Shown here: piece by piece, positions 13,983 through 18,747 of the stretch
How positions within the stretch are numbered: the first letter of the stretch is position 1
How the letters are laid out: every line of letters begins with the position of its first letter
Origin: Syntrophorhabdaceae bacterium
GTDB lineage: Bacteria; Desulfobacterota; Syntrophorhabdia; Syntrophorhabdales; Syntrophorhabdaceae
Length of the DNA: 64,000 nucleotides
NCBI GenBank assembly: GCA_036504895.1
Contig: DASXUJ010000011.1
Span: 1-64,000, forward strand
Direction of reading: 5' to 3'
Position numbers and translations under genes: made by a program
Notes under the pieces: generated by a model
Told to the model about the DNA's origin: nothing
The model's input: only the letters and a program-made list of their open reading frames with translations
The model's database searches: none

Positions 13983-15245
13983 ATGTTTGTGAGGATCAAG
14001 AAGGCGGGCAGGTACGAATACCTGCAGGTCGTGGAAAACCATCGGGTGAAAGGGAAATCCGTGCAGAGGGTGATCGCCACCCTCGGGCGCATGGATCAAC
14101 TCAAGGCCAGAGGGGAGATTGAAAGCGTGGTTCGATCCCTTTCCCGTTTTACCGACAAGCCCATCCTGCTTCTCTCCGAGCGGAGCGAAGGGATAAGGAC
14201 GGACGTCCGCAAGGCAGGTCCATCCCTCGTGTTCGAGCGGTTATGGGAGGATATGGGCATAGCCGCCATATTTCATCAGGTCAATTCAGAAAACAACACG
14301 CCTTTTCGTCAGGAGACCGAAGTGTTCCGGAGCGTGTTGCACTGTATCCTGGGAAGTGAATACGGCTCGCTCCAATCGAATAAATCCGGCCCTCCTTTTT
14401 CAGGCCGGCCCTGTGATGGTCCTGTAGTTTTTGATGCCTTATGCGGCTTTTTAGGCAGCGGCGGAAGAGATAATATCGATTGTATCGGCATTTCCGCAAG
14501 CTCTCTCAGGGACCGGGTAGAGCACGGGCTTTTCTCCCGGCGCAGCGATCCGGTGGCAGGAAAGGGAACTCCGTCACTCTATGGGGTACCTCTCTGTTTT
14601 CCCGCCGGTCCCGGAAAGGTCCCGGGAAAACAGGGCTCCGAAGAGGGCACTCTTCAGGGGATTGCCGCCATGATACTCGACGGAGATGGATACCCCCTCT
14701 GTTCCCAGTTTTTTAACGGCCGCCAATTAGATACCAAGAATCTCACGCGCTTTTTGGAACGTTCGATGCGCCGCTTCACAATCGATATGCCGTCCGTGGT
14801 TTTGGATGAGGCTGCTGTTGGTGGTAAAGGCGCCGCCTGCCCGGAAAAAAAGGGGCGTACATCCCATATTGCCGTCCCCTCTGGAAGAAATGAGCCGAAT
14901 GGGGGGCCGGCGGAGTTTCATGAAGTCCGCGAGGTTCTTCTGAACGGTCTTTCCCCTCTCGAGGAGGCCGGCATATCTCCTCCCTCCGACGATATCGCCG
15001 TCGGCCTCGTAGTAGTGGGCTTCATGGCGCTTGTACTCCGGAAAGAGCTGGAACGAAGGCTCTGCGACGGAGGCTTCCCCTTGGATTGGCGCGGTATCCG
15101 GCAAGGCCTCGATACTCTTATGGAGATCACTATAGAAGAGAACGGAAAAAGGATCTCCTTCCCCACTGAGCCTTCCGAGGATTGCAGCAAAATACTTGAA
15201 ATTCTTGACATAGACATTACTCGCCTTTCTCCCGTGATAGACTGA
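13983..15245 (+). pseudogene. IS1634-type transposase, internally decayed but open frame
   Basis: The 420-residue frame starts with the typical IS1634/IS4-group N-terminus (FVRIKKAGRYEYLQVVENHR, then VIATLGRMDQL). A middle block keeps GDGYPLCSQFFNGRQLDTKNL and a later VVLDEAAV, matching the second catalytic Asp region. The C-terminal block (VGFMALVLRKELERRL) resembles the end of these transposases. The stretch that should hold the first Asp is unrecognisable, and the Y-R-E-K block with the catalytic Glu is absent. Family members are usually well over 500 residues, so about 100 or more residues are lost. No terminal inverted repeats or target duplications were found. Either a fossil that happens to stay open or a domesticated DNA-binding derivative. 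Confidence 0.65.
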
Positions 15246-15633
15246 AATAGGGGTTCAGGGAGCGCTCACCCGTGGTGCCACAACCAGCATCTGCCTCCTT
15301 CCGGAGTGTCAAATGACGCGCTTCCTCGCCTGCCGATGTCAGGAAAGACCGCGAATAGAAGCCTCACGTGCGGCCCCCTGTTATTGGAGCCGTAATATCA
15401 ACCATTTACCTACGTCATAAAGAAATCTTTTCCCCTACAGCGACAGGACATCCCCTTTCCCTTCCCCTACTCCCCTCCTTTCCTCTCTTTTGCAGGGCCC
15501 CTGACCTCCGCCAGTAAATATGTATTCTATTTTGTACAACAATAAGAGACTAACAAGCGGTATTTGCTTGTTTTTTAGGCCTTAACATCAAACCTGCCTC
15601 CGCGACTTTCTCAAAGAACGAGCATCTTATTTG
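15246..15633. other. non-coding stretch with pyrimidine tract
   Basis: No convincing gene. Contains a 41-nt pyrimidine run at 15451-15491 broken by a single A, a TTGTACAA palindrome near 15533-15540, and a small terminator at 15552-15576. It may hold the 3' remnant of the insertion sequence to its left. Confidence 0.5.
15552..15576 (+). terminator. intrinsic terminator
   Basis: AACAAGC (15552-15558) and GCTTGTT (15566-15572) form a 7-bp stem with a 7-nt loop, followed by further T residues to 15576. It probably ends transcription coming from the transposase side and insulates the ATPase promoter. Confidence 0.6.
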
Positions 15634-15662
15634 TTGACAGGCATTATTATTTGGGGTACTAT
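15634..15662 (+). promoter_or_regulatory. sigma-70-type promoter of the Ca2+-ATPase leader
   Basis: TTGACA at 15634-15639 and TACTAT at 15657-15662 are separated by exactly 17 nt. The predicted transcription start near 15669 leaves a 5' leader of about 255 nt before the ATPase ATG. Confidence 0.7.
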
Positions 15663-15668
15663 TTTCTC

Positions 15669-15892
15669 ACCGAGGGGCTACCGGTAATCTTGAATGCCGG
15701 TAAAAACAGGGAAGGTATAGCGGTGGCAATTTCATAGATTATGAGTGCAAAAAACTTTCACTACAACAGGCGGCAGATCGACGGCACCAATGGCTGGATC
15801 GTCCTTTTTCCAGTACAGAGTGGCGGTGGCGCGGTCAGGACTGTATGACCAGCAGACCTTTACCGAGCATCTTCGGTGAAGGTCTTTTTTTT
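15669..15892 (+). promoter_or_regulatory. structured 5' leader with attenuator, candidate riboswitch
   Basis: The leader begins with CACCG (15668-15672), which can pair with CGGTG (15721-15725) and enclose a hairpin ACCGG/CCGGT (15680-15684 with 15697-15701). It later forms GGTCA/TGACC and ends in an intrinsic terminator 33 nt before the gene. The CGGTG at 15721 could alternatively pair with the ACCG in the terminator's left arm, which would give a terminator/antiterminator switch. I do not recognise it as M-box, yybP-ykoY, fluoride, NiCo or cyclic-di-GMP class. A separate ~220-nt small RNA is the alternative. The switching model is inference. Confidence 0.5.
15854..15892 (+). terminator. intrinsic terminator within the ATPase leader
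   Basis: Thirteen paired positions (15854-15866 with 15873-15885, one T-G wobble) close a 6-nt loop and are followed by eight T residues at 15885-15892. It is the strongest terminator in the window and lies between promoter and gene, so full transcription must read through it. Confidence 0.85.
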
Positions 15893-15924
15893 GATGTTCA
15901 ATTCTTTTCAGGAGGAGATAATCC

Positions 15925-18747
15925 ATGAGTAACGGCGTGAGTTACGCACAATCTGTCGAAGAAGTCTTAAAGGCTTTCGAAACAGACCTCGATAAGGGTT
16001 TAAGCGATGCCGAGGTCAAGGCCCGTATCGCCAAGTACGGCAAGAACGAGCTCCAGGAGAAAGAGAAGCCGAGCTTCTTCACCCTCCTTATGCGGCAGTT
16101 CGCCAACTTCCTTGTTATCATCCTCATCATCGCCGCGGTCGTCTCCCTGGCGCTGGGAGAATGGATCGACGCGGTCGCCATCCTCGTCATCGTCATCTTA
16201 AATGCGGTGGTGGGCGTGGTCCAGGAATCGAAAGCAGAGGAAGCACTGGCCGCCCTCAAGAAGATGTCGGCCCCCAATGCCCAGGTCATACGAAACGGCC
16301 ACCAGGTATCGATCCCCTCGGCAGAGCTCGTCCCGGGCGATATCATCATGCTGGAGGCAGGCAACTACGTACCCGCCGACATGCGCCTCGTGGAGACAGT
16401 GAACCTGAAGGTAGAGGAAGCCTCTTTGACCGGAGAGTCGGTGCCGGTAGAGAAGGAGGCTCGCGCGCTTCTGGTAGAAGATATCCCCTTAGGAGACAGG
16501 ACCAACTCCGCCTTCATGAGTACCCTCATCTCCTACGGGAGGGGCAAAGGCATCGTCACGGGCACGGGCATGAATACGGAGATCGGAAGAATCGCCGAGA
16601 TGCTCCAGTCCTATGAGGAAGAGGCAACCCCCTTGCAGATCAAGCTCGATGAGCTCGCCAAGTGGCTGGGCATCATCTGCCTCGTCATCTGCGGCTTCAT
16701 CTTCGTCTATGGACTGGTCCGCTTCACCACCTTGTCCGATATCTTCAGTAAAGGCTTCATGGCCTACCTCATCGCGGAGAAGGCAACGATCGTCGAGCTC
16801 TTCATGTCGGCCGTCAGCCTCGCCATCGCCGCCGTGCCCGAGGGGCTCCCCGCGGTCGTCACCATATGCCTCGCCATCGGCATGCAGAGGATGATCCGTA
16901 GACACGCATTGATAAGAAAGCTCCCCGCGGTAGAGACCTTGGGATGCGCCACCGTCATCTGTACGGATAAGACGGGAACCTTAACCCAGAATGAGATGAC
17001 CGTGGTCCAGGGTTGGGCCGACGGCAAGCTTTTCCACCTGTCCGGCCAGGGATATAACCCCTCCGGCGACTTCTCCTTAAATGGAGGAGCCCTCAAGGCA
17101 GAAGCGGACGTCTCGATCTGCGCCCTCCTCTATGGGGGACTGCTCTGCTCGGACGCGAAGCTCGAGCAGTTCAACGAAGACGGCGCCCAGGGCTGGCGTA
17201 TAGTCGGTGACCCCACGGAAGGCGCATTAGTAGTCGCCGCAGCCAAGGCGGGCCTCTGGAGAGAGGCGACCGAGAAGGCAATGCCCCGGGTCATGGAGAT
17301 ACCCTTCGACTCCGACAGGAAGAGAATGACCACCGTCCACGAATGGAAGAACGGCGCGGGCAAGAGCCCCGTCTTCGGCGACAATAACATATTAGCCTTC
17401 GTGAAGGGCGCGCCCGACATCATCCTGAACCTCTCCGACACGATCGTCTCCGGGGGTGAGGCAGTGCCTCTCACGGAGGAGATGAAAAAGAATATCCTCT
17501 CCGCCAACCATGATATGGCGACCCAGGCCCTCCGGGTCCTGGCAATCGCCTGCAGGTCGATGCCTGAGGTCCCCCAGGGGCAGGGCTTCGAGACGGTGGA
17601 GACGGGACTCACCTTCGTGGGCCTCATGGCCATGATCGACCCTGCGAGGCCCGAGGCCCAGGCAGCGGTCGCCGTGGCGCGTAAGGCCGGACTGCGCACC
17701 GTCATGGTCACAGGAGACCATAAGGATACGGCAGTCGCCATTGCGGGAAAGATCGGGCTCCTCACCCCGGACGGCATCGTCCTGACCGGAGAAGAGCTCG
17801 ACCGGATGAGCGACGAGGAGCTTACCTCCAAGATCGACCGGTTAAACGCCTGTTGCAGGGTCTCGCCCCAGCATAAGACCCGGATCGTCGATGCCTTCAA
17901 GGCCAAGGGCCATGTGGCGGCCATGACCGGCGACGGGGTGAACGATGCCCCTGCATTGAAAAGGGCAAACATCGGCGTGGCCATGGGCATCACCGGTACG
18001 GACGTCTCCAAGCAGACTGCCGACATGGTGCTCACCGACGACAACTTCGCCTCCATCGTCTCCGCCATCGCGGAAGGCCGGGTGATCTACTCCAATATCA
18101 GAAAGTTCGTCTTTTACCTTATCTCCTGTAACATCGGCGAGATCCTCATCATCTTCCTCGCCATGCTCTTCGGGATGCCCATGCCCCTAAAGCCGGTCCA
18201 GCTCCTTATCCTGAACTTAGTCACCGACGGGGCCCCTGCCCTTGCCTTGGGGCTCGAGAAGGGAGAGCCGGACCTGATGGACCAGCCGCCGCGCTCTACC
18301 AAAGAGCCGGTCATAAACGGGGAGATGGCATTCTCCGCGGGCGTGCAGGCAGTGGTCATGACCGCCCTCGTCTTAGGCGTCTTCGCCATCGCCCTGGGCA
18401 GATACCCCGGCAACTCCGCCTACGCAGAGACAATCGCCTTCACGACCCTCTGTATGTCGGAGCTCGTCAGGGCCTTTACCGCCCGCTCCCAGTACCACTC
18501 GGTCTTCTCCATCGGCGTCTTCTCCAACAAGTCGATGAACTGGGCGACCATGGGATCGGCGGTGCTCGTGCTCTTTATCGTCTATGTGCCTTTCCTCCAG
18601 CCTATTTTCGACACCGTCTCACTGGGCGTCAACGACTGGCTCCTCATGATCCCCTTCATCTTCGGCAACGCCATCGCAGCGGAGCTTACGAAGATCTACC
18701 TGCGTCACAGGATGGCGAAAAGAAAGGTAGTACTGGCCGCAAACTGA
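15925..18747 (+). CDS. P2A (SERCA-like) Ca2+-transporting P-type ATPase
   Basis: A 940-residue inner-membrane pump that would export Ca2+ using ATP. Domains in order: N-terminal cation-ATPase domain (1-75), two helices, actuator with TGES (about 175), M3-M4, phosphorylation site D348 in CTDKTGTLT, nucleotide domain, hinge TGDGVNDAP, and six C-terminal helices. The Ca2+ ligands known from SERCA are conserved: E306 in VPEGLP (M4), N736 and E739 in SCNIGE (M5), N764, T767 and D768 in NLVTDG (M6). This argues for Ca2+ rather than Na+, H+ or Mg2+; the M8 ligand cannot be placed with confidence. AGGAGGAG sits 7 nt before the ATG. The gene is monocistronic, preceded by a leader with an internal terminator and followed by a terminator. 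Confidence 0.9.

Follow-up and report, generated by a model that had tools for sequence, protein, structure and literature searches.

A probable half-lost Mn2+ riboswitch upstream of a P-type ATPase gene in a Syntrophorhabdaceae genome

The ATPase locus and its leader

The window analysed here is a 64,000-nucleotide stretch from the genome of a Syntrophorhabdaceae bacterium (assembly GCA_036504895.1, contig DASXUJ010000011.1, positions 1 to 64,000). It holds a P-type ATPase gene preceded by a long leader (Table 1). The first-pass annotation had called the gene product a SERCA-like Ca2+-ATPase, and the SERCA/PMR1 type was borne out, with the ATG at 15925. Scores with the family models TIGR01522 (PMR1-type) and TIGR01116 (SERCA-type) were 724 and 685 bits, both below the equivalog cut-offs, and family model and ion-site motifs agree in placing the protein among the P2A Ca2+-ATPases. 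It would be expected to export Mn2+ and/or Ca2+. A little upstream of the leader, at 13983–15245, lies a 420-aa open frame without a Pfam match; its N-terminus seems to resemble an IS1634-type transposase, and the frame is perhaps a decayed gene of a mobile element.

Table 1. Features of the ATPase locus, in window coordinates
Feature	Positions	Strand	Basis or remark
Sigma70-type promoter-like site, TTGACA-17-TACTAT	15634..15662	+	Sequence scan, 10/12 matches
5' leader part with UACCGGUA/UGCCGGUA hairpin	15669..15797	+	No recognisable L1 or 5' P1.1 strand
35-codon open frame in leader	15741..15848	+	Chance-level, weak Shine-Dalgarno, no family match
L3 remnant AUCGUCC (canonical AUCGUCA)	15798..15804	+	Alignment with the C3 leader
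Aptamer 3' part: P3 3' strand and helix P4	15824..15853	+	Homology to the C3 leader
3' side of L1 and 3' switch strand, AGC-AGACCUUUACC	15851..15864	+	Base absent between AGC and AGACC
Intrinsic terminator, stem 15854–15885, eight T at 15885–15892	15854..15892	+	Scan, folding, homology to paralog
Ribosome-binding site AGGAGGAGAT	15910..15919	+	Strong; identical in the C3 paralog
P2A-type Ca2+/Mn2+ ATPase, 940 aa	15925..18747	+	Motifs PEGLP, NIGE, NLVTDG; family models

A consensus promoter had been noted ahead of the leader, and the site is indeed present. The scan picked up three promoter-like sites over 2.5 kb where shuffles gave 1.5 ± 1.6, a count that is not above chance; it is the position of the site and its perfect −35 element that make it a plausible promoter. 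Transcription is predicted to start near 15669. The earlier figure of ~255 nt for the leader holds for the distance from there to the ATG (~256 nt), but only ~224 nt separate the start from the end of the T-run.

The terminator with eight T was likewise recovered where it had been placed. Its stem has 14 pairs counting G-U, with a hairpin energy of −20.3 kcal/mol and pairing probabilities of 0.88–1.0, and it ranks strongest among eight terminator-like sites in the region, where 2.3 were expected. Among the relatives searched, it was seen only at the window ATPase and at its paralog. The switch proposed earlier, in which CACCG pairs with CGGTG, did not survive: it is a chance-level feature with a pairing probability of ~0.001, and 44 such perfect 5-bp complementary pairs occur in the leader (mean in shuffles, 22).

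Relation to a yybP-ykoY leader in the same genome

A DNA search with the leader through the window's own genome and 98 relatives gave a single convincing match, on contig C3 of the same genome (88% identity over 15824–15930, E 5e-28). The C3 leader stands before a paralogous ATPase with 88% amino-acid identity to the window ATPase. Its elements follow in the order AAAGGGGAGUAGC ... AUCGUCA ... GGUCA...UGAUC AGCAAGACCUUUACC and then a terminator, the pattern of the yybP-ykoY Mn2+ riboswitch, of which this leader is a complete copy. A covariance model, R1, was built from the leaders of 14 relatives with C3 left out; its helices covary, with 8 of 23 pairs changed on both sides, a level reached by none of 500 shuffles and also beyond that of slid controls. 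R1 scored the C3 leader at 70.4 bits (E 2e-14), whereas the Rfam model RF00080 gave it 16.3 bits, under the gathering score of 45. The window leader reached 7.9 bits with R1, which is background, unrelated neighbouring sequence scoring 9.2. The Rfam search that the first-pass annotation had recommended as a check gave no match to the window leader, RF00080 included.

The window and C3 leaders align locally between AUCGUC (15798) and the ATG, with no extension farther upstream. The 3' part of the window leader is that of a yybP-ykoY Mn2+ riboswitch, and the leader does not represent a new riboswitch class. No known riboswitch consensus had been recognised in the leader earlier, and no Rfam model matches it, but the origin of its 3' part is now known. 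A foreign 5' part could also have been joined to a riboswitch 3' part in assembly, and the source is a multi-contig assembly; the shared leader is, however, 12% divergent, its exact matches are too short to drive assembly chimeras, and no long identical stretch lies at the join; such an artefact has a very low probability.

In working switches of this class, P1.1 is stabilised when Mn2+ promotes docking; failing that, the 3' strand of P1.1 goes into the terminator (PMC11087558, PMC9190785). The window copy keeps helix P4 (GGUCA at 15833–15837 with UGACC at 15846–15850, pairing probability 0.92–0.93), and its P1.1 3' strand overlaps the terminator, as in the transcriptional type. In L3 the invariant, Mn2+-contacting A of UCRNCA has become C (UCGUCC for UCGUCA). 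The final A of AUCGUCA corresponds to A41 of L. lactis, which contacts Mn2+ (PMC6754395); A41U abolishes Mn2+ binding (PMC11087558), and across both studies A-to-U at this position costs the RNA either stable docking or the binding of Mn2+. The 3' L1/P1.1 strand, expected as AGCRAGACCUU, reads AGCAGACCUU and is one base short. Every complete aptamer listed carries both the UCRNCA A and a base separating AGC from AGACC; the window leader has neither.

On the 5' side, L1 (GGGGAGUAGC) had no match beyond chance in 15663–15797 (68% of shuffles were as good), and no 5' P1.1 strand beyond chance was found in the window leader. Possible L1 relics at GAGGGGCUACC and GGGAAGGUAUAGC were no better than shuffles. 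One-mismatch matches to L1 occurred in the window only at 15466 (minus strand) and 27095. We rejected an inverted or displaced 5' half, GGGGAGTAGG at 15466–15475 on the minus strand; it lies in a C/T-rich stretch and has a background R1 score. The 5' part resembles neither the C3 leader nor other ATPase leaders, and nothing similar to it occurs in the 98 relatives or elsewhere in the genome; such a lack of conservation is one of the outcomes that the first-pass annotation had named as refuting a conserved new class. A mobile repeat element was dismissed as its source, a second copy being absent from the genome. The window copy has had its 5' part (P1.1 5' strand, L1 and P3 5' strand) replaced or scrambled, and it retains P4, the 3' switch strand, the terminator and the ribosome-binding site.

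These elements bear on whether the leader might be a diverged but working Mn2+ riboswitch with non-canonical L1 and L3. Ancestry and the retained P4, switch strand and terminator speak for this, but L1 is absent, the Mn2+-contacting A and one base of the 3' L1 strand are lost, the model score is background and mutation of A41 is so damaging (PMC6754395, PMC11087558) that we consider it very unlikely. The ion-responsive element envisaged in the first-pass annotation stands as far as an ion-sensing ancestry goes; with the metal-binding elements missing, the leader is unlikely to respond to ions in the known way. Leader-peptide attenuation, in which a ribosome finishing the 35-codon frame would cover the 5' arm of the terminator and so allow read-through, draws on the position of the stop codon (15846–15848), 5 nt before the terminator stem. 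Against it are a Shine-Dalgarno energy of −5.1 kcal/mol, compared with −10.3 for the ATPase, the lack of a family match for the frame, and the placement of most of the frame in sequence absent from the paralog; we regard it as highly improbable.

The 3' part, P4 included, is better conserved than fourfold sites, with ~13 of 103 positions differing where 32 were expected (p 1e-5). This counts against a dead aptamer, which would not need P4. Some of the conservation can be put down to the terminator and ribosome-binding site, and the constraint could act on either of the two copies.

Selection on the pumps and predicted behaviour of the leader

A tree of 45 ATPases placed the window and C3 copies as sisters (100/100) with equal end branches (0.074 and 0.080), and their genes were 69% identical at fourfold sites versus 95% at second codon positions. 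Because the branches are equal and second codon positions are far better kept than fourfold sites, selection appears to maintain both pumps, and some expression of the window gene is to be expected. Their nearest relatives in the tree mostly lack an aptamer, and most orthologous ATPases of 64–68% identity have none in their leaders. The two copies share the aptamer 3' part, and for this reason the simplest reading is a common ancestor that carried the riboswitch, half of which then disappeared from the window copy.

We conclude that the window leader is probably a half-lost Mn2+ riboswitch that now serves as a leaky attenuator, independent of ligand, for an ATPase still under selection. The ancestor would have been a transcriptional yybP-ykoY Mn2+ riboswitch, of which the window copy lost the metal-sensing half. 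Because the window RNA keeps the 3' strand and terminator without the partner strand of P1.1, no antiterminator would form and termination would become the default. Most transcripts begun at the 15634 promoter would then end at ~15892, and a fixed fraction reading through would give basal, Mn2+-independent ATPase expression. Mn2+-induced expression would be provided by the C3 paralog. Termination would also yield an RNA of ~224 nt, which might instead be the product of interest as a stand-alone small RNA, much as the premature product of the Bordetella pertussis yybP-ykoY leader was once listed as a small RNA (PMC8546581); with an unconserved 5' part and no Rfam small-RNA match, there is scant likelihood of this.

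A gene that is selected although its terminator should stop most transcripts needs either some control or a leaky terminator. Control could come from a rewired switch, in which the new 5' part acts as another kind of sensor, for an ion, metabolite, protein or RNA, and drives the inherited terminator. Selection on the gene and the still well paired P4 fit this, as does one predicted nascent-RNA fold that pairs 15708–15715 (GGGAAGGU) with ACCUUUACC, placing it opposite the 3' strand at the P1.1 position. The 5' part is, however, without a homologue in the 98 relatives, and pairing between upstream leader sequence and the terminator arm, examined as an antiterminator, was at chance level, 74 of 500 shuffles being as good. 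Folding of the whole leader (z −1.70) was only slightly better than that of shuffles, 11 in 200 of which equalled it. We think such rewiring unlikely. A swap after the duplication, with the sensing half exchanged for unrelated 5' sequence that couples some other signal, Ca2+ for instance, to the inherited terminator, is quite unlikely; if true, it would be a case of a riboswitch changing its ligand by domain replacement.

The half-lost riboswitch that we favour can be set against characterised systems. Like yybP-ykoY leaders (RF00080), the window leader has P4, the 3' switch strand, an overlapping terminator and a P-type ATPase downstream; unlike them, it has no L1, 5' P1.1 strand or Mn2+-contacting A and is missing one 3' L1 base. 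It shares the transcriptional design of L. lactis yoaB, where the P1.1 3' strand doubles as the terminator 5' arm (PMC9190785, PMC11087558), but not the P1.1 partner strand. S. pneumoniae mgtA (formerly caxP) has a Mn2+ riboswitch before a Mn2+/Ca2+ ATPase, according to Martin et al. 2019 as cited in PMC11434433, and the window leader would likewise be of Mn2+ riboswitch ancestry before a Ca2+/Mn2+ P-type ATPase; the pneumococcal switch, as described in that source, is complete and responsive, whereas the window leader is minus its sensing half.

If our reading is right, this genome offers a natural pair, one Mn2+ riboswitch complete and the other half-lost, each ahead of one of two duplicated pumps under selection. 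The pair could be used to ask how expression changes once a metal sensor is lost.

Mn2+ aptamers elsewhere in the genome and its relatives

Pattern searches found many yybP-ykoY-type leaders in the family and phylum, standing before ATPases and in several cases before what we take, from their sequence, to be UPF0016-type exporters. An ATPase or such an exporter as the aptamer's neighbour recurs in the family. RF00080 of Rfam 15 was run on L061, L195–L202, L104 and L111, and none reached the gathering score; the best in relatives was 24.4 bits, against the required 45. The clade aptamers missed in this way carry the conserved core. The current RF00080 model thus misses a whole clade of Mn2+ aptamers, tandem ones among them.

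Tandem arrangements, two R1-positive Mn2+ aptamers before a P-type ATPase, occurred in six genomes of one related genus (L197 in G017, L198 in G035, L199 in G036, L200 in G028, L201 in G030 and L202 in G038). The first aptamer has a terminator. In most, the second aptamer folds its CCUUU 3' strand onto the Shine-Dalgarno sequence, and in most there is a promoter-like site between the two. A 2022 review of tandem riboswitches noted that tandem Mn2+ riboswitches were lacking and called this surprising (PMC9481103). The second aptamer in G036 (L199:1632-1728) has a decayed L1 (GGGGGACAGC), L3 (UCGUCG) and 3' strand, and is apparently another Mn2+ riboswitch losing function, parallel to the window leader. 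At L104:1550-1750 a second AGCGAGACC switch strand, which has a terminator of its own but no second 5' half, comes after a complete Mn2+ aptamer.

Mn2+ aptamers also occur elsewhere in the window's own genome. One, on contig C85 (L196:739-833; 38.9 bits), lies before an exporter gene, presumably UPF0016/MneA-like to judge from its sequence. Another, on contig C137 (L195:1810-1907), scored 86.7 bits with R1 and has a terminator; the operon behind it (L205:147-3233) encodes TolC, a CzcB-like adaptor and a 1028-aa RND-type pump, a TolC-MFP-RND set.
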